Source of the DNA: Sphaerisporangium sp.
GTDB lineage: Bacteria > Actinomycetota > Actinomycetes > Streptosporangiales > Streptosporangiaceae
Direction: 5' to 3'
Assembly (NCBI GenBank): GCA_025964675.1
Contig: JAOPYI010000297.1
Span: 1 to 32,202 of the forward strand
Length of the DNA stretch: 32,202 nt
A model generated the notes under the pieces. It was not told the origin of the DNA and did not search any database. It worked only from the letters and a program-made list of their open reading frames with translations. This document shows positions 14,324-31,816 of the stretch, in pieces; positions within the stretch are counted from its first letter, which is position 1; every line of letters starts with the position of its first letter. The translations under genes were made by a program, and so were the position numbers.

Positions 14324-17300
14324 TCAGCCGTCCAGTAGCTCGCCGAGCTGCGCGCGCATCTGCTGGGCCACCGGGGCGTCCATCTTGTCGGTCAGGGCGA
14401 ACGCCTGGGCCAGCGAGTCCTGCGCCGCCTCGCCGTCCCCGGCCGCCTGCTGGGAGTCGCTGAGCCTGATCAGCGTCCGAGCCTCCTGCAGCGGCATGTA
14501 CATCTGCCGGAACAGCGACAGCGCCTGCTCGAAGTTGATGACCGCCTGGGGGGGGTCCTCCTGGGCCAGGGCAAGCTCGCCCAGCCCGAGCTGCACCCGC
14601 GCCTCCACGAGGTGCTCGCTGGAGGTGCTCGCCAGCATCAGGGAGCGGTGCAGCGCGCTGTTGGCCTCCGCCAGCTCACCCCGCCGCAGCCGGGCGATGC
14701 CCAGCCCGTGCAGGGCGTACGCCTCTCCGGTCGGGTCGCCGATGTTGCGAACCACGTCGAGTGCCCCGTTGAACACCTCCACCGCCAGCGCCGGCTGGTC
14801 CGACTGGAGGTAGGTGTGGCCGATCCGGTGCAGGACCTGCGCCTCGACCCTCCGGCTGCCGCTCCTGCGGCTGAGCTCCAGCGCCTCGGACAGCAGCCGC
14901 TGCGCGCCGGGCAGGTCGTCGAACTCGAGCCGGAGCTGGGCGAGGTTGTGAAGCACGTACGCCGACGCGACCTGGTCCTCAGTGCCCCTGAAGATGTCCA
15001 GAGCTCGCCTGTAGTGTGCCTCCGCGTCGGCGAACCGCCCGCTCAGCCGGTCCAGGAACCCGATGTTGCGGATCACGAGGGCCGTCCCCTGGCTGTCTCG
15101 GACCTCCTCGAAGAGCTGGACCGCCGCCTCGAAGTCGCAGCGCGCGTCCCCGAACCGCTGCTCGGTGATGTAGAGCGAGCCCCGGGAGTAGAGCATCGCC
15201 GCCTGCCCCCGCTTGTCCTGGCCCTGCCGGGAGGCCGTCAGGGCGATCTGGTGCGTCTCGCGCCAGTCGTCGAGGTAGACCCGCGACTCGAAGAGCGTCA
15301 CCGAGCTGATCGCGAGATCCCAGCAGAGCGGGACGAACCCCGCCTGCGCGGCCTGGCGTATGCCCGAGACCAGCATCGAGCGCTCCCGCTCGTACCACTG
15401 GAGGGGCGAGGCGACGAGCTGGTCGACCAGCTTCGCCGGGAGCGGCCAGCGTGAGGCGTCGCTGTGGATCTGCACGTAGTCCCCGCCGTACTCCCGGCGG
15501 TGCGCCGCCTCCGCCAGGAAGAGCAGCCCGCCGAGGACGCGCGCGAGCGCCGCGTTGCGCTCGCCCGCGGTCTCCTCGGCCGCGAGGCGTTCCCGCGCGA
15601 ACACGCGGATGAGGTCGTGGAAGCGGTACTGGCTGTGCACGCCGTACCCGACGCCGGTGGTCTCGATGAGCTGAGCGTCGGCCAGGTCGTCCAGCAGGTC
15701 CTGTGCGGTGTCGAGCGGATGGTCGAGCAGGGCGGCGCTGACCCAGGCGGAGAAGATCTGCGAGTCCAGGATCGTCAGGCGGCGGAACAGCCGCCGCGCG
15801 TCCTCGCCCACGCTGTCGTAGGTGAGGGAGATGCTGGCGCGGATCCCCATATCGCCGTGCTTGAGCTCGTCGAGCCTGCGCGTCTCGTCCTCGAGGCGGC
15901 TCACGAGCTGCTCCACGCTCCAGTGAGGCCGAGACGAGAGGCGCGCGCCCGCGATGCGCAGGGCGAGCGGCAGCCGGCCGCACAGCTCGGCCAGGGCCTC
16001 GGCCGCCTCGATCTCCGACTGCACCCGCTCTATCCCCGCGATGCGGGACAGCAGGTCCACCGACTGATGGGAGTCGAATATCTCCACGTCGACGTGGGAG
16101 GCGCCGGCCAGCCCGGCGAGCCGGCTCCGGCTCGTGATGATGACGGCGGAGTTCGGGTTGCCGGGGAGCAGGGGAAGGACCTGGCTCTCGCTCCCGGCGT
16201 CGTCGAGCACGATCAGCATCCTCCGGTCGGCGAGCAGCGCGCGGTACATCTCCGCCCGCTCCTCCAGGCCGTCGGGTATCGCGGTGCCGGACACGCCGAG
16301 GACGCGGAGGAACCGCTCCAGCACCTGCATGGGGCTGGTGGGACGGGACGCCGCTCCGTGCAGGTCCGCGAAGAGCTGGCCGTGGGGAAAGCGGTCGCCG
16401 ACGCTGTGGGACACGTGGACGGCGATGGTGGTCTTGCCGACGCCGGGCTTGCCGACGATCACGAGGATGGGCACGGCGAACCGCGAGCGGTCCTCGGAGG
16501 CGAGCATCAGGCGCTGCCGGATGTCCTCGATCTGCTTGGTGCGGCCGGTGAAGTCGGCGATGTCGGTCGGCAGCATCCCCGGGACGTTCGGGACCGTCCG
16601 GGACGGCTGGACCTCCACCTTCTCGGGCGGCGGCGGCGCCGGCGGGTCGAGGCTCTCGTCGGAGGTGAGGATCGCGTGCTCGAGCTGCTGGAGCCGCTCG
16701 TTGGGCTCGATGCCCAGCTCCTCGATCATCGTGCGGCGGGCGTTGCGATAGACCTGCAGCGCCTCCGCCTGCCGGCCCGAGCGGTACAGAGCGGTCATCA
16801 GCTGGCCGCGAAGCCGCTCACGCAGCGGGTATTGCTCGGTGAGCTCGGTCAGCTCGCCGACCAGTTCGTGGTGGCGGCCGAGGTCCAGCTCGAGCTGGAT
16901 GCAGTCCTCGTTGGCGTTGACCCAGTTCTCGGTGAGCCTGCTGGCCGCCGACTGCACGAGCCTGCTCTCGATCCCGTCGAGGGCGGGCCCGCGCCACAGT
17001 GCGAGCGCCTCGCGGTAGTGCTTTATCGCCTCGTTGACGTTGCGGGCCTCGCGGGCGCCCCGCGCTCGCAGGACGAGGCTCTCGAAACGCTGGGCGTCGA
17101 TCTGGTCGGCGGCGACCCGGATGGCGTAGCCCAGCGACTGGGTGGAGATGATCTCCGGGCTGCCGCTCGCGGCGAACAGGCGCCGCAGGGAGGATATGCA
17201 GATCTGCACCTGGGCTCGGGCGGTGGTGGGCGGCTCGTCCCCGTAGATGGCCTCCATGAGCCTGCCGATGGTGACGACCCGGTTGACGTCGAGCAGGAGG

Positions 17301-17392
17301 ACGGCGAGCACGATCTGCTGCCTGATCCCCCCGAGATCCAGCCGCCGATCACCTTCAGACGCTTCGAGAGCTCCCAGAATCCCGAATTCCAC
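14324..17392 (-). CDS. AfsR-like SARP regulator with NB-ARC and TPR domains
   Basis: This protein of about 1022 residues is close in size to Streptomyces AfsR. The order is an OmpR-like winged helix (about 1-90), a bacterial transcriptional activation domain (about 95-240), and a Pro-rich linker. The NB-ARC ATPase follows, with P-loop GKPGVGKTT (about 314-322), Walker B LIVLDD (about 393) and CGRLPLAL. A winged helix with FHDLIRVFARERL comes next, then TPR repeats to the end. Such proteins bind direct heptamer repeats and recruit RNA polymerase at secondary-metabolism promoters. GTG 17392 is preferred: GAGGAG lies exactly 6 nt upstream and the protein then starts VEFGILGALE, as is usual for the family. 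In-frame ATGs at 17398 and 17425 have no well-placed ribosome site. It is the first of three large regulators in this island. Confidence 0.93.
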   Translation of the reverse strand: MEFGILGALEASEGDRRLDLGGIRQQIVLAVLLLDVNRVVTIGRLMEAIYGDEPPTTARAQVQICISSLRRLFAASGSPEIISTQSLGYAIRVAADQIDAQRFESLVLRARGAREARNVNEAIKHYREALALWRGPALDGIESRLVQSAASRLTENWVNANEDCIQLELDLGRHHELVGELTELTEQYPLRERLRGQLMTALYRSGRQAEALQVYRNARRTMIEELGIEPNERLQQLEHAILTSDESLDPPAPPPPEKVEVQPSRTVPNVPGMLPTDIADFTGRTKQIEDIRQRLMLASEDRSRFAVPILVIVGKPGVGKTTIAVHVSHSVGDRFPHGQLFADLHGAASRPTSPMQVLERFLRVLGVSGTAIPDGLEERAEMYRALLADRRMLIVLDDAGSESQVLPLLPGNPNSAVIITSRSRLAGLAGASHVDVEIFDSHQSVDLLSRIAGIERVQSEIEAAEALAELCGRLPLALRIAGARLSSRPHWSVEQLVSRLEDETRRLDELKHGDMGIRASISLTYDSVGEDARRLFRRLTILDSQIFSAWVSAALLDHPLDTAQDLLDDLADAQLIETTGVGYGVHSQYRFHDLIRVFARERLAAEETAGERNAALARVLGGLLFLAEAAHRREYGGDYVQIHSDASRWPLPAKLVDQLVASPLQWYERERSMLVSGIRQAAQAGFVPLCWDLAISSVTLFESRVYLDDWRETHQIALTASRQGQDKRGQAAMLYSRGSLYITEQRFGDARCDFEAAVQLFEEVRDSQGTALVIRNIGFLDRLSGRFADAEAHYRRALDIFRGTEDQVASAYVLHNLAQLRLEFDDLPGAQRLLSEALELSRRSGSRRVEAQVLHRIGHTYLQSDQPALAVEVFNGALDVVRNIGDPTGEAYALHGLGIARLRRGELAEANSALHRSLMLASTSSEHLVEARVQLGLGELALAQEDPPQAVINFEQALSLFRQMYMPLQEARTLIRLSDSQQAAGDGEAAQDSLAQAFALTDKMDAPVAQQMRAQLGELLDG

Positions 17393-17835
17393 CTGCATCT
17401 CCTCGCAAGAAAGCCCGCGGTCCATCCGGAAGTTTGCTCATCCTCCGATGCGAGAGGTACACAGGCGCGTATTCCAGGAGATCCCCCTCGTAGTAAACAT
17501 CGGCATTAGCCGGCTCGTGACGCTTGTGCTTGTGATACGGATACTGTCGGGCGCGAGCTGGTTACATATGGCGATGTCACTTATGTCTGGATCGTACTAC
17601 TATACGTGGTTCGGATCTATAGAGAGTCTACGAATACTTTCTGAATCCGCATAGTTATTTGCATGTGCAACCTTTTTCCGGGTGCCAGGCAAGCAATCCA
17701 AGCGGTGGTATGTCCTGATATGAGTAGGTCTGGGATAGAGGTCGAGAAACGACAGTGGCGCAGGTGGCGAGAGACGACGTCGTCTCCGGCGAGGCCGGAT
17801 GCGGACACATGCTCCGCGGCACTTCCCCGGGTCTG
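17393..17835. other. AT-richer upstream region of the SARP gene
   Basis: These 443 bp include the least GC-rich DNA in the window, about 17550-17700. They should hold the SARP promoter on the minus strand and the 3' end of the small-protein gene. Short repeats are visible: CTTGTG twice in tandem at 17523-17534, GATAC twice at 17534-17544, and the palindrome TCTATAGA at 17616-17623. A plus-strand open frame ending at 17654 has no ribosome site and I do not call it a gene. The palindrome CCCCAAGGGG at 17840-17849 overlaps the end of the small gene and is not a convincing terminator. Confidence 0.5.
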
Positions 17836-18115: not shown

Positions 18116-18494
18116 TCCCTCCTTATCGGATCTCTTCTCGCTTGCCATCAGGGCAGCTCAAGGCACAAACCAGGCTATTTATAATGTTTCGCCGATATTT
18201 CATGACTAGGGCCCGCCGAGGTGGCGTGAAGCCCCCGGAAAGCGGTGTGACCTGCGACGGGATGCCTCCCGGCGGCGCCGGGGACGGCCGTGAATAGCGG
18301 AGCGAGAGTGGACCGATAGCGGGGTCCGGCACTCTGACGCGCAGGCCGGGACTGGCCGGTGCCAGCTGTGTCTCCTGTCCCCCGGCGCACGCGGGCCGGG
18401 TCGGGGACTGTGGAACCGGAGGCGGCCGGCGCGCCAATCGCGATGATGCTCGATCTGTCCGTCTCGGCGGGCTCGGCAGATAGGTGGTCCTGAC
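18116..18494. other. Divergent promoter region between the small protein and the transthyretin-like gene
   Basis: An AT-rich island at 18171-18204 contains TATAAT (18180-18185), readable as a -10 on the plus strand and as TATAAA on the minus strand. I see no matching -35 in either direction. The SARP-like repeats at 18294-18326 lie downstream of it. The segment 18340-18480 would be a GC-rich 5' leader of about 150 nt if transcription starts just after the repeats. No gene is supported in this stretch. Confidence 0.45.
18294..18326 (+). promoter_or_regulatory. Three direct heptamers at 11-bp period, candidate SARP box
   Basis: ATAGCGG (18294), AGAGTGG (18305) and ATAGCGG (18316) are spaced exactly 11 bp apart, within the 11-mers ATAGCGGAGCG, AGAGTGGACCG and ATAGCGGGGTC. 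SARP regulators bind direct heptamers with one-turn spacing, the last repeat usually about 8 bp before the -10. Here 8 bp after the last heptamer stands ACTCTG, a poor but possible -10. The repeats lie about 170 bp upstream of the transthyretin-like gene and 0.9 kb from the divergent SARP gene start. Confidence 0.5.
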
Positions 18495-18830
18495 ATGAGT
18501 GTTACCGCGCAGACGTTGGACGGCGTTTACGGCCGGTCGGCCGCCGGCGTGCGGGCCCGCCTGGAGCGGGACGCCAGCGGAGGATGGCAGGATCTGGCCG
18601 ACGCGGAGACCGACAATGAGGGCCGCATAAGCGAATGGCGCGACAAGAAACTCGACCGGGGTCTGTATCGCATTGTGTTCGACAGCGACTATTACTTCGT
18701 CGGCCTCGGTCTGAGCGCGGCATATCCCGAGATAATCGTGACCTTCAGAATGCAGGACGAGACCGACGCCTACCAGATCCAGGTGATGCTCTCCCCGTAT
18801 TCGTACTCAACGCATTTCCGGATCGCCTGA
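18495..18830 (+). CDS. Transthyretin-like protein (HIUase fold, catalytic residues lost)
   Basis: This 111-residue protein aligns along its whole length with 5-hydroxyisourate hydrolase/transthyretin. Matching blocks are GRSAAGVRARLER, ETDNEGRI, RGLYRIVFDSDYYF, YPEIIVTF and MLSPYSYST. Active HIUases use a His near the start (T-H-x-L-D), an Arg in NxxGR, a His in YH(I/V)PLL and a C-terminal YRGS. Here the first His is Gln6 (TAQTLD), the second is Gln94 (YQIQVML), and YRGS is replaced by THFRIA. Only the Arg (Arg44) is kept. Vertebrate transthyretin likewise lost these residues and has the same LSPYSYST block. A binding, scaffolding or altered catalytic role is likely. Rare codons (ATA twice, AGA, AAA, GCA) are more frequent than in neighbours. 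The start ATG follows AGGTGG by 8 nt. Confidence 0.82.
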   Translation: MSVTAQTLDGVYGRSAAGVRARLERDASGGWQDLADAETDNEGRISEWRDKKLDRGLYRIVFDSDYYFVGLGLSAAYPEIIVTFRMQDETDAYQIQVMLSPYSYSTHFRIA

Positions 18831-18897: not shown

Positions 18898-20700
18898 ATG
18901 ACAGACGCGAACACCACGAGGTCGGCGCACCTCGTGGACGCCCCGGGGCAGGCGGCCCGCTATCGCTCGTTCACGCCCATGGTGTTTCCCGGCCGTCGCT
19001 GGCCGGACAACACCATCACCTCTGCTCCGCGCTGGCTGTCGACCGATCTGCGCGACGGCAACCAGGCGCTCGCCCATCCCATGACTCCCGATCGCAAGAT
19101 GGCGATGTTCAATCTTCTGCTGCGCATGGGATACCGGGAGATCGAGGTCGGATTCCCGGTCGCGAGTCAGGACGACTTCACGTTCGTGCGCACGCTGATC
19201 GAACGCGACCTCATCCCCGACGATGTGCGCATTTCCGTTCTCGTACAGGCTCGCGACGAATTGATCAGGCGTACGGTGGAGAGCCTGGAGGGCGCCCCGC
19301 GCGCCACCATCCACTTGTACAACGCCACCTCCCCGCTCTTCCGGCGGGTGGTGTTCGGGATGAACCGGGACGAGTGCAAGGACCTCGCGGTGCAGGGCAC
19401 CCGGCTGGTCATGAAATACGCGGACAAGATGCTCGGCGGTTGTGATCTCGGATTCCAGTATTCGCCGGAGCTCTTCAACGACACGGAGCTCGATTTCTCG
19501 CTCGAGGTGTGCGAAGCGGTCATGGACGTCTGGCGGCCGGAGGCGGGGCGTGAGATCACCCTCAACTTCCCCACGACCGTCGAGCGCTCCATGCCGAACG
19601 TTTTCGCCGACCAGATCGAGTGGCTGCACCTCAACCTCTCGCGGCGCGAGCACGTCTGCCTCTCCATCCACCCCCACAACGACCGGGGGACGGGTGTGGC
19701 CTCGTCGGAGATGGCCCTGCTGGCGGGCGCGCAGCGCGTCGAGGGCTGCCTGTTCGGCAACGGCGAGCGGGCCGGCAACGTCTGCCTCGTCACGCTCGGG
19801 CTCAACCTGCTCACCCATGGCGTGGACCCGGGGATCGACTTCTCCGACCTGGACGGTGTCCGCCGCACGGTTGAGTACTGCAACGAGATGTCGGTGCACC
19901 CCCGTCACCCATACGGCGGTGACCTCGTCTACACCTCGTTCTCCGGCTCGCACCAGGATGCGATCAAGAAGGGCTTCGACGAGCTTGAGCGCGCCGCAGG
20001 CGAGGCGGGGGTCGAGCCCCGGCGCCTTCCGTGGGAGATGCCGTACCTGCCGCTCGACCCGCGCGACGTCGGACGCACGTACGAGGCGGTGGTCCGGATC
20101 AACAGCCAGTCTGGCAAGGGCGGGGTGGCCTACGTCATGAGCGCCTGGTACGGCATGAACCTTCCGCGTCCCCTGCAGATCGACTTCGCCGCCGTGGTGC
20201 AGGGACGGGCCGACACCGATGGCGGGGAGATCACGCCGGAGGAGGTCAGGCGGCTCTTCGACCGCGAGTACGTCGAGTACCCCCTTCTGCCCGTCCCGCT
20301 CGTCTTCACCGGGGACACCGTGACGGCCGAGCTCCACATCGACGGTGAGGGGTTCGACGTCGGCGGTGCGCGGACGGACGCGGTCCAGAGCATCAGCGGC
20401 GCGCTCGCGCGGTGGGGAGTGGACGTACGGGCCGTGCACCGTACCTCGTGCGCCCCGGCCGGGAGCCGGGACCCCGGCGCAGGCGTCGTCGTCTACGCCG
20501 AGTGCAGGGTGGGGGGAAGCACGTTCTGGGGCGCGGGCGTCGACCGCGACGCGGAGGCGGCCTCGCTGTCGGCCGTGCGTTCGGCCATGACCCGGGCGCG
20601 TCTCGCCTCCGCGCCCGCCACCTGCCCGGCGGCCGACTCCTTGCCGGCAGGGATTCCCGCGCCACGCGCCTCCCACCCGACGATGGCCGCGCGCCGATAG
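18898..20700 (+). CDS. leuA: 2-isopropylmalate synthase-type enzyme
   Basis: This 600-residue protein is a full-length member of the LeuA family, which condenses a 2-oxo acid with acetyl-CoA. The catalytic barrel shows DLRDGNQAL (Arg52-Asp53), HPHNDRGTG with metal-binding His258 and His260, and GNGERAGN. The C-terminal regulatory domain is present (RTDAVQSISG to TFWGAGVDRDAEAASLSAV), followed by a 30-residue tail. Several positions differ from what I recall of housekeeping actinobacterial LeuA. GFPSASQ is GFPVASQ (Val88), FEYSPE is FQYSPE (Gln187), ERTGN is ERAGN, and the usual charged stretch after YIM is replaced by SAWYGM. It may use another 2-oxo acid, or be a leucine-insensitive paralogue. 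It lies 67 bp after the transthyretin-like gene and is probably co-transcribed. The ATG follows an AAGGGAAAGAG purine tract. Confidence 0.9.
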   Translation: MTDANTTRSAHLVDAPGQAARYRSFTPMVFPGRRWPDNTITSAPRWLSTDLRDGNQALAHPMTPDRKMAMFNLLLRMGYREIEVGFPVASQDDFTFVRTLIERDLIPDDVRISVLVQARDELIRRTVESLEGAPRATIHLYNATSPLFRRVVFGMNRDECKDLAVQGTRLVMKYADKMLGGCDLGFQYSPELFNDTELDFSLEVCEAVMDVWRPEAGREITLNFPTTVERSMPNVFADQIEWLHLNLSRREHVCLSIHPHNDRGTGVASSEMALLAGAQRVEGCLFGNGERAGNVCLVTLGLNLLTHGVDPGIDFSDLDGVRRTVEYCNEMSVHPRHPYGGDLVYTSFSGSHQDAIKKGFDELERAAGEAGVEPRRLPWEMPYLPLDPRDVGRTYEAVVRINSQSGKGGVAYVMSAWYGMNLPRPLQIDFAAVVQGRADTDGGEITPEEVRRLFDREYVEYPLLPVPLVFTGDTVTAELHIDGEGFDVGGARTDAVQSISGALARWGVDVRAVHRTSCAPAGSRDPGAGVVVYAECRVGGSTFWGAGVDRDAEAASLSAVRSAMTRARLASAPATCPAADSLPAGIPAPRASHPTMAARR

Positions 20701-20826: not shown

Positions 20827-23622
20827 ATGAGCCTGATCGAACGACAGGAGGCATTAGCCTCTCTGGAGGGCCTACTCGCCAATGCCATCATGGGGAAGGG
20901 CCGGGTCGCCCTGGTGAGCGGCCCCGTCGCGACCGGCAAGAGCGAACTGCTCCACTCCTTCGCCGAGCAGGCCGCCGAGCTCGGCGCGCTTCCCATCACC
21001 GCGACAGGATCGCTGGCCGAGAGGGACCTGCCGCTCGGGGTGCTCGGCCAGCTCATCCAGGACGCCCCGCTGGTCATCGAGGAGCGTGAACGGGCCATGG
21101 CCCTGCTGCGCGAGGGCGCCCGCATCGTCATGTCGTCCGGCTCCTCGACGGACCCCCTGAAGCAGGTCGACGCGCAGATCGTGCACGCCCTGTGCACCGT
21201 GTTGCTCGAGTTGTCCGAGCGCTACCCCCTGATGATCGTCGTGGACGACGTGCACCACGCCGACCGGGCGTCGCTGCTCTGCCTGGCCTACCTGTCGCGG
21301 CGGGTGCGGTTCGCCTCCATCGTGGCGGTGTTCAGCCACTCCAGCCACGGGCGGTACGCCGAGACCTCCTTCCCGACCGAGCTGCTCCGCCAGCCCCACT
21401 GCCGTCGTATCCAGCTCTCCCCGCTGTCCCAGGCGGGCGTGATGAGCCTGGTGGCCGAGCAGCTGGGGACCGAGGCGGCCGAGCGGTTCGCCGGCGAATG
21501 GTATGCGCTCAGCGGTGGAAACCCTCTGCTGGCCATGGGACTGGTGGAGGACCACCAGGCGGCCATGCGGTCCGCCGGGGGAGAGCCTCCGGCCGAGCTG
21601 GTCCCGGGAGACGGATACGGGCAGGCGGTCCTGTCGTGCCTGCACCGCGCCGACCCGAAGATGCTCCAGGTGGCGTGGGGGCTCGGGGTCCTCGGCCAGG
21701 CCGACTCGCTCGACCAGCTCCTCGGGGTCAGCCCGGAGTACGTCACCCGCGAGCTTCAGTCCCTCGCCGTCGCCGGGCTGCTCACCATGAACCAGTTCCG
21801 GCACACCTCCGCCCGCGCGGCCGTACTCGCCGAGCTGGACCCCGACGAGCGGTCCGAGCTGCACCGCCGCGCGGCGGAGCTGGCCTACGACGGCGGCAGC
21901 TCCACCAAGGTGGTCGCCGAGCACCTGCTGCACGCCGGCCGCGTGGACGAGCCCTGGGCCGTCGAGGTTCTGGAGGACGCCGCGAGGCACGCGCTGCGCG
22001 AGGGCCGGGTCGAGGCCGCCGTGGAGTATCTGCGCCTGGCCTGCCGGACCAGCACCGACGCCGAGCAGCGGGTCAGGATAACCACCGCGCTCATGCGGGC
22101 AGAGTGGCGGATCAACCCGAGCACGCCCACCGGTCACTTCCCCGAGCTGACCGACGCTCTCCACCGGGGACACCTGCGGGGCAGCGACGCGGTGGTGCTG
22201 GCCAAGGCCCTGCTGTGGCACGGCAGGTTCGACGACGCGCAGGATGTGCTGAAGCGCCTCGGCGAGTCGGGGGAGAAGCTGGACGCCGACACGGTGACGG
22301 AGCTGGTGGTCACTCGGCCGCTGCTGCGCTGCGCGTACCCCTCGTTCCTGTCCCACCTGCCCCCGGTGAGCGGCGAGCAGTCCCGCGCGGCCATCCTCTC
22401 CGTTTCGGCGTACCGCCGCCTGGAGTCGGCGGTCACGCTCGCCTCCGTGCTGACCAGGGGCCCGCGCGAGGAGATCGTGGCCGTGGTCGAGCGGATCCTG
22501 CGCAGCTCCCGCCTCGACGAGATCTCGATGGACACCGTGGAGAGCGCCCTCCTCGCGCTCACCTACGGCGGGCGGCCCGACAAGGCGGCGCCGTGGTGTG
22601 ACCTGTTCATCGACGAGGCGTCCTCCCGGCACGCCCCGAGCAGGCAGGCCCGGCTGTCGGCGATCCGCGCGGAGATCGCGCTGCGCCAGGGCGACATGCT
22701 CGGGGCCGAGTTCCACGGCCGGCTGGCCCTCGACACCATCCCGCTCAGCGGATGGGGCGTGGCCGTCGGCGGGCCGCTGTCCAGCCTTGTGATCGCCTCG
22801 ACCGCGATGGGCAGCTACGACGCCGTCAACGAACTGCTCGACCAGCCCGTGCCTGACGCGATGTTCCAGACCCGCTGGGGGCTGCACTACCTGCACGCCA
22901 GGGGCCGTTACAGCCTGGCGACCGATCACGCCCAGCTCGCGCTCAGGGACTTCCAGCGGTGCGGCGAGCTCATGGGCCGGTGGGACCTCGACGTTCCTTG
23001 GCTCATCCCATGGCGTGCCGAGGCGGCCGAGGCCTGTCTGCGCCTCGGAAGGCCCGACCAGGCCCGGCGGCTGGTGGAGGAGCAGATCAGGCGGTGCGGG
23101 ACCAGCGCCCCACGGGTGCACGGGATCGCCATGCGCCTGCTGGCCGCCACCAGCGAGCCGAGGCACCGCCCCATGCTGCTGCGCCAGGCCGGTGACCTGC
23201 TGCAGTCCGGCGGAGACCGGTACGAGCTGGCGCGCGTGCTCGCCGACCTGACGGAGGCCTTCCACGCGCTCGGCGAGTACCGGCGGGCGGGGATGATCGG
23301 CGGCCGGGCCCGCGCGGTCGCCCAGGAGTGCCACGCCGATCCGCTGAGCAGGTCGCTCGCCCGGGACGGCGACGCGAGTACCGCCGTGGTGTCGGGCTCG
23401 CCGTCCGACGCGGCCGACGTCACGGCCATCCTGAGCGACGCTGAGCGGCGGGTCGCGGTGCTGGCGGCGGCCGGCTACACCAACCGTGAGATCGCCGACA
23501 AGCTCTACGTCACGGTGAGCACCGTCGAGCAGCACCTCACCCGCACCTACAGGAAGCTCGACATCACCAGCCGCGCCGAGCTTCCTTCCACCCTCGAAAT
23601 CGGTACTTCGATGCCCGCCTGA
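20827..23622 (+). CDS. LAL-type LuxR family transcriptional regulator
   Basis: This 931-residue regulator has an N-terminal AAA-type ATPase with P-loop GPVATGKS (32-39) and Walker B LMIVVDDVHHAD. A long helical TPR-like middle follows, then a C-terminal LuxR helix-turn-helix (869-921), with NREIADKLYVTVSTVEQHL. Large ATP-binding LuxR proteins are typical pathway-specific activators of actinomycete gene clusters. Codon 10 is TTA (20854-20856), rare in this GC-rich genome and a classic target of the bldA leucyl-tRNA, so translation may be development-dependent. The ATG at 20827 has AAGGGGGG about 7 nt upstream. A 126-bp, less GC-rich gap separates it from the LeuA-type gene. It holds GGACAAG (20758) and GGACAAC (20768). 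The gene may have its own promoter. Confidence 0.93.
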   Translation: MSLIERQEALASLEGLLANAIMGKGRVALVSGPVATGKSELLHSFAEQAAELGALPITATGSLAERDLPLGVLGQLIQDAPLVIEERERAMALLREGARIVMSSGSSTDPLKQVDAQIVHALCTVLLELSERYPLMIVVDDVHHADRASLLCLAYLSRRVRFASIVAVFSHSSHGRYAETSFPTELLRQPHCRRIQLSPLSQAGVMSLVAEQLGTEAAERFAGEWYALSGGNPLLAMGLVEDHQAAMRSAGGEPPAELVPGDGYGQAVLSCLHRADPKMLQVAWGLGVLGQADSLDQLLGVSPEYVTRELQSLAVAGLLTMNQFRHTSARAAVLAELDPDERSELHRRAAELAYDGGSSTKVVAEHLLHAGRVDEPWAVEVLEDAARHALREGRVEAAVEYLRLACRTSTDAEQRVRITTALMRAEWRINPSTPTGHFPELTDALHRGHLRGSDAVVLAKALLWHGRFDDAQDVLKRLGESGEKLDADTVTELVVTRPLLRCAYPSFLSHLPPVSGEQSRAAILSVSAYRRLESAVTLASVLTRGPREEIVAVVERILRSSRLDEISMDTVESALLALTYGGRPDKAAPWCDLFIDEASSRHAPSRQARLSAIRAEIALRQGDMLGAEFHGRLALDTIPLSGWGVAVGGPLSSLVIASTAMGSYDAVNELLDQPVPDAMFQTRWGLHYLHARGRYSLATDHAQLALRDFQRCGELMGRWDLDVPWLIPWRAEAAEACLRLGRPDQARRLVEEQIRRCGTSAPRVHGIAMRLLAATSEPRHRPMLLRQAGDLLQSGGDRYELARVLADLTEAFHALGEYRRAGMIGGRARAVAQECHADPLSRSLARDGDASTAVVSGSPSDAADVTAILSDAERRVAVLAAAGYTNREIADKLYVTVSTVEQHLTRTYRKLDITSRAELPSTLEIGTSMPA

Positions 23623-26045: not shown

Positions 26046-27236
26046 ATGCGTGGGGCCGCCGGCCCGCCGATGAGCCTTGAGGCGATCGACCATGCCCTGG
26101 GCCGCCGCATGGAGGAGCGCGACCGCATCGCCGGCGACCTGCTCGACCTCGACGACCACCCGAGCCACCGGCTGCTGAAGGGCATGAGTCCCACAGGGGA
26201 GACCGGGCGCCGGTGGGACGAGGCGCAGATCAGGCTCGTGACCCTGTGGTGGCTCTTCGACGCCTACCGGCGGGTGCTCGACCGGGCGCAGGAGATCAGG
26301 GCCGGTCACAGGCCCGACCTCGTCACGCTGGCCATGCTGCTCACTGGTCCTTCGGTGGAGCTGAAGCCCGACGACGTGCCCGTGGAGAAGCGCTCCCTGC
26401 TCCGTGCCGTGGGCGAGTGGATCACCCTCGACGTGATCCTCGCCCGCATGGACCAGGCATACCGCGAGGTGGCGGAGACGGTCGCGGCCGTGGACGCCGC
26501 CTGGAGCCTGCTGCTCCCGAGGCTCGACGAGACCGACGCCGCCCGCCGCGCGGCGAGGGACCTGGCCCGCGACCTCGGCACCCCAGACCCCGAGCTCGAC
26601 CGCCTCGACGCCGGCGCCGGCCGCCTCCGCGCCGCGGTCACCGCCGACCCGCTGGGCTCCACCGCGCTGCGCGACGAGCTCGACGCGACCGCGGCCGCCG
26701 TCGCCGCCCGGCGCGGCCTGCTGGAGCAGGCGGTGCGGGTCCGCGAGGAGTACGCCGACCGGGCCCGCCGCCTGGACGAGCGGATCACGCGGGTCGCCGA
26801 GGCCGAGGACGAGGCGCGCCGGATCCGTGACGTGGTCACCGTCAAGATCGCCTCCCCGTCCCTTCCCGAGCTTCCCGACCAGGCGCCCGCGCTGCGCGAC
26901 CGCCTGTCCGCGCTCGGCACGGTCGACGGCCGCTGGCTGGAGCTGGTCGAGCGCCTGACCGGGCTCGAGCGCGGCGTCGAGGAGGCGCTGGCGCAGGCGG
27001 GCAGGGCCGCGGAGTCGATCGGCGGCCTGATCGGCCGCCGCGACGAGCTTCGCGGGCGGCTCTCCGCGTACCAGGCCAAGGCGGTGCGCCTCGGCCACGC
27101 GGAGGACATCACGCTGACAGGGCTGTACGGCGTGGCGCGTGACCTTCTTTGGACGGCGCCGTGCGACCTGCGGCGGGCGACCGTCGCGGTCGCGGAGTAC
27201 CAGCGGGCCATCACTCGGATCGGAGCGGCCGGATGA
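26046..27236 (+). CDS. Coiled-coil protein of the PknG-type kinase operon, function unknown
   Basis: This protein of about 396 residues is almost entirely charged, Ala/Arg/Glu-rich helix with no signal peptide or membrane segment. An N-terminal third (ALGRRMEERDRIAGDLLDLD to LLTGPSVELKPDDVPVEKRS) looks globular. The rest (AAWSLLLPRLDETDAARRAA and onward to the C-terminus) reads as long coiled coils. I do not recognise a named domain. Its stop overlaps the kinase start (ATGA), so the two are translated together, and it may be a partner or scaffold of the kinase. ATG 26046 has GGAG 8 nt upstream; TTG 26040 and ATG 26070 are in-frame alternatives. Confidence 0.85.
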   Translation: MRGAAGPPMSLEAIDHALGRRMEERDRIAGDLLDLDDHPSHRLLKGMSPTGETGRRWDEAQIRLVTLWWLFDAYRRVLDRAQEIRAGHRPDLVTLAMLLTGPSVELKPDDVPVEKRSLLRAVGEWITLDVILARMDQAYREVAETVAAVDAAWSLLLPRLDETDAARRAARDLARDLGTPDPELDRLDAGAGRLRAAVTADPLGSTALRDELDATAAAVAARRGLLEQAVRVREEYADRARRLDERITRVAEAEDEARRIRDVVTVKIASPSLPELPDQAPALRDRLSALGTVDGRWLELVERLTGLERGVEEALAQAGRAAESIGGLIGRRDELRGRLSAYQAKAVRLGHAEDITLTGLYGVARDLLWTAPCDLRRATVAVAEYQRAITRIGAAG

Positions 27237-29626
27237 CCAAGTGCACGCAACCCGGATGCGCCGGGACGGTGGTGGACGGTTACTGCGACACCTGCGGCAT
27301 GGCGCCCCAGCCGGAGGCGGCGCCGTCCGGCGGTCCCGGGAGCCCGTGGCCCCAGAGCGCCGCTTCGCCGGGTTCCGGGGCCCCGGGCCGGCCGGGCACC
27401 GCCTGGCCCTCGATGGCGCCCGGCTCCCCGCCGCAGCCCCCGCCCGCCTCGGGCCGGCCCGGCGTCGCGTGGCCTTCCGGCGTGGCGGCCCCTTCAGGGT
27501 CGATGACCAGGCCGTCCATCGGCGTCCCCGGCACCGCCGTCACCGGGTCGTCGGGCACGGCCTCAACCGGCTTCACCAGCGCCTCCCGCCGCAGCAGCAC
27601 CCGTTCCCGCCGGGGGATGCTCGGCATGGGGCTCGTCGAGGTGCCCCCGGTGCCCTACCGGGACCCGTCGGCGGTGGTCCTGGTCGACCCCGTGGTGCCC
27701 GAGGACCGCCGCTTCTGCGGCAACTCCGACTGCGGCAAGCCGGTGGGCCGCCAGAGGGACGGCCGTCCGGGGCGGCCCGAGGGGTTCTGCCCGCACTGCG
27801 GCCAGCGCTTCTCGTTCACGCCGAAGCTCCGCGAGGACGATCTGGTCGCCGGGCAGTACGAGGTCAAGGGATGCCTGGCCCACGGAGGCCTCGGCTGGAT
27901 CTACCTGGCCGCCGACCGCAACCTCGACGGCCGCTGGGTCGTCATGAAGGGCCTGCTGGACACCGGCGACCTGGAGGCGCTCGCCGCCGCCGAGGCCGAG
28001 CGGCGCTACCTCACGGCGATGGACCACCCGAACATCGTCAAGATCTTCAACTTCGTGAGCCACCCCGACCCCGGCACGGGGACGATGGTGGGCTACATCG
28101 TCATGGAGTACGTCGGCGGCGAGCCCCTTCAGGACCTGCTGCGCAAGAGGCTCAGGGAGACCGGCAACAGCCAGGCGCTCCCGCTGTCCCAGGTCATCGC
28201 CTACGGGCTGGAGATCCTCCGGGCCTTCGGCTACCTGCATGATCGCGGCATGCTGTACTGCGACCTCAAGCCCGCCAACGTCATCCAGGTGGAGGAGCAG
28301 CTCAAGCTCATCGACCTCGGCGCCGTGCGGCGCGTCGACGACCCCGACAGCGCGATCTACGGGACCGTCGGCTACCAGGCGCCCGAGATCGCCTCCCGCG
28401 GCCCGTCCGTCGCCTCCGACCTCTACACCGTGGGCCGCACGCTCGCCGTGCTGAGCCATCCGTTCAGCCCCGCCAGCGGAGGCGCCGCCGCGCCGCTGCC
28501 CGACATGGGCCCTCGGCACGAGTCCTACCAGCGGTTCCTGCAGCGTGCGACCGACTCAGATCCCGGCAGGCGCTTCCAGAGCGCGGCCGAGATGTCCGAC
28601 CAGCTCGTCGGCGTGCTGAGGGAGACCAGGGCAGCGGAGGACGGCGTTCCGAACCCCGCGCAGTCCGGAGTGTTCGGTCCCGAGCGGGCGGCCGTGGGCA
28701 CCGAGCTGGCGCCGGCCACCACGGGGCGGGTCTTCGGCGACCTGGACCGCCTGGACGCCGCGGGCGGGCTGCCCGTCCCCTTGGTCGACCCGCTGGACCC
28801 CGCCGCCGGGTTCCTCGCGGGCCTCACCTCGGGCAACCCGGACGAGCTGATCGCCGTGCTGGAGTCCGCGCCCCCCACCCCTGAGACCTCGCTCGCGCTG
28901 ATCAGGGTGCTGAGCGAGCTCGGACGCCCCGTTCCCGAGGCGTTGTACGCGGCGGCGGCCAAGGACCTTCCCGGGGACTGGCGGCTGTGGTGGTACCGCG
29001 GGGTCGCGGAGCTGGCCTCGGGGGACGTCGGCATGGCCGTGCGGTTCTTCGACGGGCTGTACGCGTGGTTCCCGGGCGAGGCGGCGCCGAGGCTTGCCCT
29101 CGCGTTCGCCCTCGAGGCCGCGGGGGCGAACGCCGAGGCCGCCCGGCACCACGCGGCCGTCTGGCAGACCGACCGGTCCTACGTCAGCGCCTGCTTCGGC
29201 CTCGCGCGGATCCGGCTCGCCGAGGGCGACCGGGCCGGGGCCACCCGCGCGCTGGACGAGGTGCCGCCGACCTCCATCCACCGGACCGCCGCCCAGGTGG
29301 CCGCCGTGGCGGTGACCGTACGCGGGCAGGCGCCGGCCACGCTAGAGCTGGTCGCCGCCGGGGAGCGGCTGCGGAGCCTGAAGCTCGACTCCCGCGACCG
29401 CGACGGGCTCGCCTCCGAGGTGCTGGAGAGCGCGCTCGCCCGGTTCGTCGCCGGCCAGCCGGTGTCCGGCGCCGGCGCGCTGCTCGGCACGCCGCTGAAC
29501 GAGCATGGTGTGCGCGGCGAGCTGGAGCGGGTCTACCGGGCACTCGCCAGGTCGGCCCCCTCCACCGAGGACCGCCACGCCCTCATCGGGCGCGCCAACG
29601 CCGTGCGCCCGAGGACGCTGTTGTGA
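27233..29626 (+). CDS. pknG: PknG-type serine/threonine protein kinase with zinc ribbons and TPR
   Basis: This 797-residue soluble kinase has the PknG order. An extra N-terminal zinc ribbon (Cys4, Cys9, Cys18, Cys21) is followed by a Pro/Gly/Ser-rich linker of about 100 residues. A rubredoxin-like ribbon comes next (Cys162, Cys167, Cys186, Cys189), then the kinase domain from about residue 205, and a TPR region to the end. The ATP lysine is Lys239 (VVMKG), the catalytic loop is YCDLKPANV with Asp344, and the metal-binding motif LIDLG has Asp361. The Arg before the catalytic Asp is replaced (YCD), as in mycobacterial PknG (YND). Mycobacterial PknG controls glutamate metabolism through GarA; whether that holds here is not shown. 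It starts by ATGA overlap and ends by GTGA overlap with the phosphatase. Confidence 0.93.
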   Translation: MTKCTQPGCAGTVVDGYCDTCGMAPQPEAAPSGGPGSPWPQSAASPGSGAPGRPGTAWPSMAPGSPPQPPPASGRPGVAWPSGVAAPSGSMTRPSIGVPGTAVTGSSGTASTGFTSASRRSSTRSRRGMLGMGLVEVPPVPYRDPSAVVLVDPVVPEDRRFCGNSDCGKPVGRQRDGRPGRPEGFCPHCGQRFSFTPKLREDDLVAGQYEVKGCLAHGGLGWIYLAADRNLDGRWVVMKGLLDTGDLEALAAAEAERRYLTAMDHPNIVKIFNFVSHPDPGTGTMVGYIVMEYVGGEPLQDLLRKRLRETGNSQALPLSQVIAYGLEILRAFGYLHDRGMLYCDLKPANVIQVEEQLKLIDLGAVRRVDDPDSAIYGTVGYQAPEIASRGPSVASDLYTVGRTLAVLSHPFSPASGGAAAPLPDMGPRHESYQRFLQRATDSDPGRRFQSAAEMSDQLVGVLRETRAAEDGVPNPAQSGVFGPERAAVGTELAPATTGRVFGDLDRLDAAGGLPVPLVDPLDPAAGFLAGLTSGNPDELIAVLESAPPTPETSLALIRVLSELGRPVPEALYAAAAKDLPGDWRLWWYRGVAELASGDVGMAVRFFDGLYAWFPGEAAPRLALAFALEAAGANAEAARHHAAVWQTDRSYVSACFGLARIRLAEGDRAGATRALDEVPPTSIHRTAAQVAAVAVTVRGQAPATLELVAAGERLRSLKLDSRDRDGLASEVLESALARFVAGQPVSGAGALLGTPLNEHGVRGELERVYRALARSAPSTEDRHALIGRANAVRPRTLL

Positions 29627-30534
29627 ACGGCGCCTGTCCCGCGTGCGGGACCCAGGTCCTCGCCGGCGAGGCGTTCTGCGAGCAGTGTGGCCACGACCTG
29701 TCCTCGGCCGCCACACCCTGCACGGCCTGCGGGTCGCTGAACGTCGGCCAGGACGGCTACTGCGAGAACTGCGGCATGCTGCAGCCGTCGGGCCGCGACC
29801 ACGTCGAGATCGAGCTGGAGACCTCGGCCGGCGTGAGCGACCGGGGCCTGCGCCACAGCCGCAACGAGGACGCCATGGGCCTGACGTCCCTCGCGCAGGG
29901 CCAGGTCGTCGCGATCGTCTGCGACGGGGTGTCGACGTCGCCACGCCCGGACGAGGCGTCCCAGGCGGCGGCCGACATCGCGCTGGCCACCCTCGCCAAG
30001 AGGCTCGCCGAGGGCGACGACGCCGAGACGGCCACCCGTGAGGCCGTACGTCTCGCCGCCGGGGCCGTCGCCGCCTCGGCCCGCCCGGGCGAGGACTCGC
30101 CCGCCTGCACGTTCGTGTCCGCGGTGGTCGCGGGGCGGCTGGTCACGGTCGGCTGGGTGGGCGACAGCCGGGCGTACTGGCTCGGCGCCCAGTCGGCGCT
30201 GCTCACCACCGACGACGCCACCCCCGGCACCCACATGCTGACCGCGTGGCTGGGCGCCGACGCGGGCGAGGTGGTGCCGCACATCAGGACCTTCACCACG
30301 GACGGCCCGGGCGTGGTGCTGCTGTGCAGCGACGGCCTGTGGAACTACTACCCGGAGCCGGAGGCGCTCGCCGCCACGGCCCTGAACGACAACCCTCTCG
30401 CGGCGGCGCGGCGGCTCGTACGGCTCGCGAACGAGGCGGGGGGACACGACAACATCACCGTCGCGGTCATCCCGTTCGGACGGGGGGAGCGGGCCGAGAA
30501 CACGGTGGCATTCCCGAAGGAGAGAAGTGACTGA
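29623..30534 (+). CDS. PP2C-type protein phosphatase with N-terminal double zinc ribbon
   Basis: This 303-residue protein starts with two zinc-ribbon halves, CPACG/FCEQCG and CTACG/YCENCG, within the first 50 residues. A PP2C (PPM) domain follows. The metal-binding aspartates are all present: SRNEDAMG, VCDGVSTS, VGWVGDSRAYW, LLCSDGLWNY and GGHDNITV. It should remove phosphate from Ser/Thr residues using Mn or Mg, and probably opposes the adjacent kinase. The GTG at 29623 overlaps the kinase stop by 4 nt, and its end overlaps the VWA gene by 8 nt. The second ribbon (GYCENCGM) closely resembles that at the kinase N-terminus (GYCDTCGM). Confidence 0.93.
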   Translation: MNGACPACGTQVLAGEAFCEQCGHDLSSAATPCTACGSLNVGQDGYCENCGMLQPSGRDHVEIELETSAGVSDRGLRHSRNEDAMGLTSLAQGQVVAIVCDGVSTSPRPDEASQAAADIALATLAKRLAEGDDAETATREAVRLAAGAVAASARPGEDSPACTFVSAVVAGRLVTVGWVGDSRAYWLGAQSALLTTDDATPGTHMLTAWLGADAGEVVPHIRTFTTDGPGVVLLCSDGLWNYYPEPEALAATALNDNPLAAARRLVRLANEAGGHDNITVAVIPFGRGERAENTVAFPKERSD

Positions 30535-31816
30535 CTTCACCATTCGCGTGGACCAGAACAAGTACCTGCCGGCGGGGAGCCAGGAGGTCCACGGGATCAT
30601 CACGGTCGAGGCGAGCGGCCCTGTGGATCGCGCCCCCGTGGCCGAGGCCGCCGAGGTGATCATCGTCGACACCTCGGGCTCCATGTCGTACGGCAAGATC
30701 GCCGACGCGCGCAAGGCCGCGCAGGCCGCCATCGACACGCTCCGCGACGGGGTCCACTTCGCGGTGATCTCCGGGAACCACCAGGCCGAGGTGATCTTCC
30801 CGGGCGGCGGGCGGCTCGCCCCGGCGGACGCGCAGAGCCGTCACGCCGCCAAGGAGGCCGTCTCCCACCTGCGGGCCGAGGGCGGCACCGCCATGGGCCG
30901 GTGGCTGCGCCGCGCCGCCGACCTGTTCAGCGCCCACCAGGTGACCCACCCGGGCGCGATCAGGCACGCCATCCTGCTGACCGACGGCAAGAACGAGCAC
31001 GAGCCCGCCCCCGAGTTCGACGCGAACCTCGCGTACTGCTCGGGCAAGTTCGTCTGCGACTGCCGTGGCGTCGGCACCGACTGGGTCGTGGCCGAGGTGC
31101 GCAGGATCGGCTCCACCCTGCTCGGCAGCGTGATGGACATTCGAAGGCCCGAGGAGCTGGAGGCCGACTTCCGGGCGATGACCGAGGCGGCCATGGGCAA
31201 GACCGTGGCCGACGTCGCGCTGCGCGTGTGGATCCCCCGGGCCGCGACGCTGAACTTCGTCAAGCAGGTGTCCCCGGCGCTCGAGGACCTGACCTCCCGC
31301 CGTACGGAGGTGGACGCGCTCACCGGCGACTACCCCACGGGCGCCTGGGGAGGGGAGTCCCGGGAGTACCACGTCAGCGTGCGCGTGCCCTCGGGCAACG
31401 TCGGGCAGGAGATGCGCGCCGGGCTCGTGAAGCTGGTGCTGCCAGACACGGGCCAGGTGCTGGCCAGCGGGAACATGCTCGCCCAGTGGAGCGACGACCC
31501 CGTACAGTCGACCCGGATCAACCAGAGGGTCGCCCACTACACCGGTCAGCAGGAGCTCGCCTCGCTCATCCAGGAGGGCCTGCAGGCACGCAACGACGGC
31601 GACGTGGAGGCCGCGACCGCCCGGCTCGGCAAGGCGCGCGGCATCGCCGAGCAGGCCGGCAACGAGGAGACCGCCAAGCTGCTCGACAAGGTCATCGACG
31701 TCGACCCCGAGACGGGAACCGCACGTCTCAAGCGCGTCGTTGACAAGGCGGACGAGATCGCGCTCGACACCCGCTCCGTCCGCACCGTCCGCATGCGCAA
31801 GGACCCGGAGAACTGA
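30527..31816 (+). CDS. VWA domain protein
   Basis: This 429-residue protein has a von Willebrand factor A domain with a complete metal-ion-dependent adhesion site: DTSGSMSYG, the Thr in EGGTAMGRW, and LLTDGKNEHE. A beta-rich middle section follows (EYHVSVRVPSGNVGQEMRAG). The C-terminal helical region begins TRINQRVAHYTGQQELASLI and has repeats like those of a TPR-like domain. There is no signal peptide, so it acts in the cytoplasm, probably as an assembly or substrate-presenting component of the kinase/phosphatase system. GTG 30527 follows AAGGAG by 6 nt and overlaps the phosphatase stop. Confidence 0.92.
   Translation: MTDFTIRVDQNKYLPAGSQEVHGIITVEASGPVDRAPVAEAAEVIIVDTSGSMSYGKIADARKAAQAAIDTLRDGVHFAVISGNHQAEVIFPGGGRLAPADAQSRHAAKEAVSHLRAEGGTAMGRWLRRAADLFSAHQVTHPGAIRHAILLTDGKNEHEPAPEFDANLAYCSGKFVCDCRGVGTDWVVAEVRRIGSTLLGSVMDIRRPEELEADFRAMTEAAMGKTVADVALRVWIPRAATLNFVKQVSPALEDLTSRRTEVDALTGDYPTGAWGGESREYHVSVRVPSGNVGQEMRAGLVKLVLPDTGQVLASGNMLAQWSDDPVQSTRINQRVAHYTGQQELASLIQEGLQARNDGDVEAATARLGKARGIAEQAGNEETAKLLDKVIDVDPETGTARLKRVVDKADEIALDTRSVRTVRMRKDPEN

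Follow-up and report, generated by a model that had tools for sequence, protein, structure and literature searches.

A transthyretin-fold paralogue of hydroxyisourate hydrolase with a lost active site is probably part of an AfsR-type SARP circuit in Streptosporangiaceae

The window analysed here is a stretch of 32,202 nucleotides from Sphaerisporangium sp. (NCBI GenBank assembly GCA_025964675.1, contig JAOPYI010000297.1, positions 1 to 32,202 of the forward strand). It carries a gene for a small protein with the fold shared by 5-hydroxyisourate hydrolase (HIUase) and transthyretin (TTR). This protein, a dead HIUase paralogue in that its catalytic residues are lost, has probably been recruited into the regulatory circuit of a large Streptomyces antibiotic regulatory protein (SARP) of the AfsR type, which acts in specialised metabolism. 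At the level of sequence, the proposal is carried by the loss of the catalytic set throughout a clade, by a tight and usually divergent linkage to the SARP gene, and by a conserved SARP-type promoter in front of the TTR gene. The module in the window consists of the following elements:

14324..17425, minus strand: large AfsR-type SARP of 1033 amino acids (Trans_reg_C, BTAD, NB-ARC and TPR), divergent from the TTR gene and assigned by domain matches
18294..18319, plus strand: core of the SARP box, with ATAG at 18294 and at 18316, 22 bp apart, and a weaker third repeat, GAGAG, about 11 bp in between
18330..18335, plus strand: putative -10 element CACTCT with a conserved A and T, 8 bp past the last repeat
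18495..18830, plus strand: dead HIUase, a TTR-fold protein of 111 amino acids, assigned by domain match, predicted fold and residue comparison
18898..20700, plus strand: second LeuA-type 2-isopropylmalate synthase paralogue (LeuA2) of 600 amino acids, assigned by PRK03739, with the LeuA regulatory domain below its cut-off
20827..23622, plus strand: large LuxR-type (LAL) regulator of 931 amino acids, with an AAA_16 ATPase and a LuxR/GerE helix-turn-helix, the last gene of the presumed operon

The open reading frame (ORF) at 18495-18830 is confirmed as real, and its product belongs to the HIUase/transthyretin family with the catalytic residues lost. It matches the Pfam domain PF00576 with 74 bits and scores 78.3 bits against the hydroxyisourate hydrolase equivalog TIGR02962, below the cut-off of 87.45. 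Structure prediction, as proposed by the initial annotation and run as a monomer only, gave an AlphaFold2 model with a pLDDT of 93.7, which HIUase and TTR structures match over its full length. Instead of the catalytic set of two His, one Arg and the C-terminal YRGS, the translated ORF has Q6, R44, Q94 and HFRI. The residues Q6, Q94 and STHFRIA, named by that annotation from the letters alone, are thus all present, and R44 is retained. Its claim that no uricase or OHCU decarboxylase gene lies nearby also holds, as the 19 window ORFs scanned include no purine-degradation gene. Judged by its residues, the protein is not expected to hydrolyse 5-hydroxyisourate.

The loss is not confined to the window. 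Among 297 genomes of the family, 57 matches in 55 genomes exceed a threshold of 100 bits to the window protein, with 52-100% identity; the next match reaches 83.6 bits. The residue check covered a minority of the listed TTR-family matches below 100 bits, and there may be more dead members, beside a SARP or not. The hosts of the clade are mainly Streptosporangiaceae, with one Actinoplanes, and a contig scan with two peptide patterns found 34 loci of the clade and a single canonical outlier, 35 in all. In Sphaerisporangium, all 11 genomes (the window's own included) carry an orthologue with 78-100% identity, and all 11 also carry a second, divergent HIUase copy with the catalytic set intact. In the window's own genome, this canonical copy sits between the genes for OHCU decarboxylase and uricase; genes for xanthine-dehydrogenase-type subunits come next. 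In a tree of 95 distinct sequences, built from few columns with several long branches and a midpoint root, the 64 dead and the 31 canonical rows form separate groups with support of 99/89. Not one of the 64 dead rows combines H6, R44 and H94, whereas the complete H-R-H-YRGS set is found in 30 of the 31 canonical rows. At position 6, 52 of the dead rows have Gln and one has His (His in 30/31 canonical rows). Arg44 is kept in 29/64, His94 in 4/64 and the YRGS Arg in 1/64 (Phe in 56/64), against 31/31 canonical rows at each of these three positions. The dead copy evolves under purifying selection, with a median ratio of nonsynonymous to synonymous substitutions (dN/dS) of 0.076 (range 0.028-0.222, 55 pairs). 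Four deeply diverged dead members, with 32-44% identity to the window protein, were first found as TTR matches: G562 from another family, G030, G044 and a third copy in G007. A fifth, G323 from a third family, was picked from the SARP side and is not counted as independent. By these sequence criteria, the dead HIUase paralogues form a clade of their own, found mostly in Streptosporangiaceae, and the window protein is one of its members. The loss of the HIUase active site and the repurposing of its fold in bacteria, both put forward by the initial annotation, are supported by this clade.

The steadier partner of the dead HIUase is the large AfsR-type SARP, with LeuA2 as a secondary neighbour. 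The window SARP has the AfsR-type architecture of BTAD, NB-ARC/NOD and TPR. SARP counts rest on the best two SARP candidates per genome, in both the family and the class searches. Of the 57 clade members, 53 have a large SARP no more than 5 kb away (46 divergent, 6 tandem and 1 convergent), with a median gap of 942 bp, and a SARP at E <= 1e-250 is present in all 55 genomes carrying the 57 matches. Two of the four exceptions, in G080 and G083, lie on short contigs that end near the TTR gene, and each of these genomes has the SARP on another contig. The member G163:C6 adjoins a shorter BTAD regulator with 35% identity, and G128:C80 has no SARP nearby, the SARP of that genome standing beside another TTR copy. 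The four deep members found as TTR matches are all SARP-adjacent, the SARP of G030 being broken by a contig end. At three loci (L103, L105 and L106), SARP and TTR stand on their own, without a LeuA2 or LAL match. Tandem large SARP matches occur by the TTR gene at L113, L114 and L115 (G074, G205 and G145), where the second match spans only query residues 6-804.

LeuA2 adjoins 45 of the 57 clade members and is missing beside 12. The LeuA search of the family scored the best four candidates per genome. The window copy is a clear family member (PRK03739, 749.6 bits against a cut-off of 455), and its alignment to 1sr9 retains RDGNQAL, HPHNDRGT and GNGER, which we take to be the catalytic stretches of 2-isopropylmalate synthase. 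At 20 sampled LeuA2 loci without TTR nearby (L123-L142), LeuA2 and LAL form a pair of their own in 18. The window is therefore best read as two separable pairs, SARP-TTR and LeuA2-LAL. These counts do not support the pairing with a LeuA-type enzyme, noted in the initial annotation, as the main association, and LeuA is ruled out as a constant partner. Two Nonomuraea-type loci (L095 10395-10915 and L068 4362-4823) have no intact LeuA2 next to TTR; in each, a broken and diverged sequence resembling LeuA occupies the space between the SARP and TTR genes.

As described in PMC10936776, SARP promoters follow a rule: direct repeats are spaced by 11 or 22 bp, and 8 bp separate the final repeat from the -10 element. 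The promoter of the TTR gene has this arrangement. On the TTR coding strand, ATAG repeats spaced by 22 bp precede the gene in 40 of 55 loci, which come from related species and are not independent. Controls from a Markov model gave a mean of 0.065 and a maximum of 2 in 200 runs; the reverse strand gave 0 at 22 bp, and other spacings between 10 and 45 bp gave 0-5. The profile reads g.cGATAGCg.G.CGAAGGcG.A.cGATAGCgg, followed after 8 bp by the -10-like element with its conserved A and T. What had been a possible SARP box in the initial annotation is thus borne out as a strongly conserved SARP-type promoter.

A position weight matrix (PWM) was built from 42 training sites in 40 loci, which therefore match by construction. 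With it, scores of 25 or more were reached before 56 of the 64 distinct clade genes and before none of the 16 canonical HIUase genes left in by the filter; a 600-kb Markov sequence contained no PWM matches. Non-training TTR copies without a large SARP nearby still carry the box (L098 with 35.2, L094/L198 with 43.6). Most of the 20-kb TTR loci scanned have no strong box site apart from the TTR promoter. Other strong sites precede a split LeuA2-LAL pair (L137, 30.0) and a LAL gene (L077, 26.8), and matches of 16-20 are scattered in L054, L103, L106 and L135.

The reach of the box was examined with an exact 26-bp pattern in the 11 Sphaerisporangium genomes. The 14 matches comprise the 11 TTR promoters and three sites before copies of one hydrazine-type operon, which encodes a Lys/Orn N-monooxygenase, a cupin, a MetRS-like protein, a TauD-like enzyme and others (L244 12600-17234, L246 10465-15198 and L248 11651-16408). 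The reversed pattern gave 6 matches in the same genomes, so single extra matches would mean little; the three are credible because all precede the same operon. Among the 11 genomes, three have this N-monooxygenase at E <= 1e-80, exactly those with the boxed operon. A cupin, a MetRS-like protein and N6-hydroxylysine make up the N-N-bond-forming set of PyrN/Spb40, as described in PMC8664883. The promoter profile marks the likely targets of the circuit, in Sphaerisporangium one specialised-metabolite operon besides the module itself.

The pathways next to the module differ between genera. Examples from Planobispora and Microbispora have an iterative-type polyketide synthase (PKS) with DUF1702 and UnbV_ASPIC proteins nearby, and Herbidospora, Spongiactinospora and Microtetraspora have a modular PKS with acyl-CoA carboxylase-type, Sfp-type phosphopantetheinyl transferase and thioesterase genes. 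Motifs of nonribosomal peptide synthetases (NRPS) occur among the neighbouring pathways in some loci. In Sphaerisporangium, no PKS match was found in flanks of about 10 kb on each side, and further in G004 and G009. The DUF1702/UnbV neighbourhood resembles enediyne cassettes; the name was not adopted, as no enediyne-named model is among the 25 NCBIfam models listed and Pfam gives DUF1702 and UnbV_ASPIC only. Direct control of the neighbouring PKS genes by the same box was also rejected. The PKS flanks scanned (L083, L087, L090, L092, L099, L101 and L102) contain no PWM match of 16 or more, so PKS control would be indirect or run via another site.

Several known systems invite comparison. Like the window protein, vertebrate transthyretin is a paralogue of HIUase in which the active site was lost and the fold kept, as described in PMC4324301. 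The bacterial clade, in contrast, belongs to Actinomycetota and has substitutions of its own (Gln/Gln, and Phe for the YRGS Arg in 56/64). According to the same source, a change from Tyr to Thr helped to open the vertebrate channel. At this position (human position 119), the clade rows have Tyr in 43/64 and His in 12/64, the window included, and Thr in none. The parallel drawn in the initial annotation thus stands for the loss of the active site with the fold kept and fails for the channel residue; an opened, TTR-like channel was set aside, as the Tyr is mostly kept. From HIUase itself (TIGR02962, PF00576) the window protein differs by its score below the equivalog cut-off, its lost catalytic set and a SARP neighbour in place of purine-degradation genes.

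AfsS of Streptomyces is a small protein. In its circuit with AfsR, a large SARP with NOD and TPR acts on a promoter before afsS with 11/22-bp repeats, the last of them 8 bp from the -10 element (PMC10936776). The module resembles this arrangement, with the difference that its small protein has a transthyretin fold and is likened to AfsS by its position in the circuit, and that the operon often adds LeuA2 and LAL. A similar hierarchy, a SARP-level regulator above a second regulator, is described for SARP-LAL control of the PimR/PimM type in PMC5930380. Here, SARP and LAL are separate proteins with the dead HIUase gene between them.

On this basis, a course of events can be proposed. The dead HIUase gene would be the first of its transcription unit, TTR(-LeuA2-LAL), and the SARP would activate this unit through the box. 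Where present, the LAL may then drive neighbouring biosynthetic genes. The conserved fold and the purifying selection point to a TTR-fold protein that works by binding a protein or a ligand rather than by hydrolysis. We favour the view that it modulates the STAND regulators SARP and/or LAL or relays their signal, in the place of AfsS. A bolder version is less likely than not to hold. In it, a bacterial transthyretin gates or relays the signal of the AfsR-type STAND regulator, possibly via a small molecule in the old active-site channel, and is its missing input or immediate output, evolved independently of, and parallel to, the vertebrate carrier. Antibiotic production is switched by large SARPs such as AfsR, and whether the AfsR sensor domain binds an inducer is described as elusive in PMC10936776. 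A conserved small partner under a box-bearing promoter, with a fold that binds ligands in vertebrates, would be a concrete candidate molecule. If true, this would be a second repurposing of the HIUase fold following the loss of catalysis. A literature search, with subscription journals mostly outside its reach, found no paper joining hydroxyisourate with SARP or transthyretin with AfsR.

Several observations weigh against the proposed circuit. At least 24 of 80 SARP matches have no clade TTR within 5 kb. Among these 24, 11 are the second Sphaerisporangium SARP copy, 2 result from contig breaks that separate SARP and TTR, and that of G044 has a deep TTR below the cut-off. When SARP loci of the class were taken as the starting point, a TTR-like ORF lay within 1.5 kb in 5 of 30, just beyond in 2, and in 23 there was none. 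With the PWM, 8 of the 64 distinct clade genes, the four deep members among them, showed no box upstream. Moreover, an action of the protein on the regulator does not follow from linkage and co-regulation alone. In a rather unlikely alternative, the TTR-fold protein is an AfsS-like output only: the SARP has it made, and it acts on targets further downstream, with neither SARP nor LAL ever contacted. The near exclusivity of the box (the sole strong site in most TTR loci, and 11 of the 14 pattern matches in the genus) fits such an output, and AfsR likewise acts on the afsS promoter (PMC10936776). However, in most loci the LAL would be a nearer and sufficient output, and in three genomes the box stands directly on a biosynthetic operon.

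It is unlikely that the protein belongs to a biosynthetic pathway instead, as the initial annotation suggested, binding or transforming an intermediate made with LeuA2 and standing in the SARP regulon merely as a biosynthetic gene. In the window, LeuA2 directly follows the TTR gene, and it is a neighbour of most clade members; the two would share one box-driven transcript, and the LeuA-like fragments of L068 and L095 may be relics of an older association. Yet a dozen clade members lack an adjacent LeuA2, L103, L105 and L106 have the SARP alone, and away from TTR, LeuA2 mostly keeps to LAL. The differences between the neighbouring pathways of the genera argue against one shared substrate, which is hard to picture. 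That the protein is still an HIUase, or that it serves the purine pathway as a second enzyme using other catalytic residues, is highly improbable. The fold and much of the sequence are kept, as are the Arg in the window and in 29 rows and His94 in four, but the window protein has neither of the two His nor the YRGS Arg, and the mutants H6A, H95A and Y108F of a known HIUase are described as lacking rapid hydrolysis in PMC4324301. The same genome also holds a canonical HIUase in its OHCU-HIUase-uricase operon, and all 11 genomes of the genus hold the intact second copy. Lost catalytic residues would also suit a decaying duplicate without function, an idea with practically no chance of being correct. 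It was rejected in view of the purifying selection; the gene is moreover present in 55 of the 297 family genomes, where its linkage and promoter have largely been preserved. The recruitment into the SARP circuit thus stays the preferred explanation.

Some further observations concern SARPs without a TTR partner. Each of the 11 Sphaerisporangium genomes has a second large SARP (63-70%) with no clade TTR within 5 kb. In 7 of these loci (L148 8786-13148; L147, L151, L156-L159), an Sfp-type phosphopantetheinyl transferase match adjoins the SARP, and the PWM found no box site scoring 16 or more there. Weaker or isolated PWM matches lie beside a few TTR-less SARPs (L153 with 21.9, L160 with 21.9, L161 with up to 34.8 and L163 with 20.1). 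At L153 12999-13605 (G242), the site precedes a gene that resembles, by eye, an SRPBCC-type protein, possibly another small protein in the TTR slot. At L161 13292-14263 and 17597 (G129), box-like sites of 26.8, before a divergent gene, and of 34.8 accompany a large gene reading like an NRPS. In the window itself, the module is followed downstream by a PknG-type kinase with rubredoxin and TPR domains (27149-29626) and then by a VWA protein (30527-31816).
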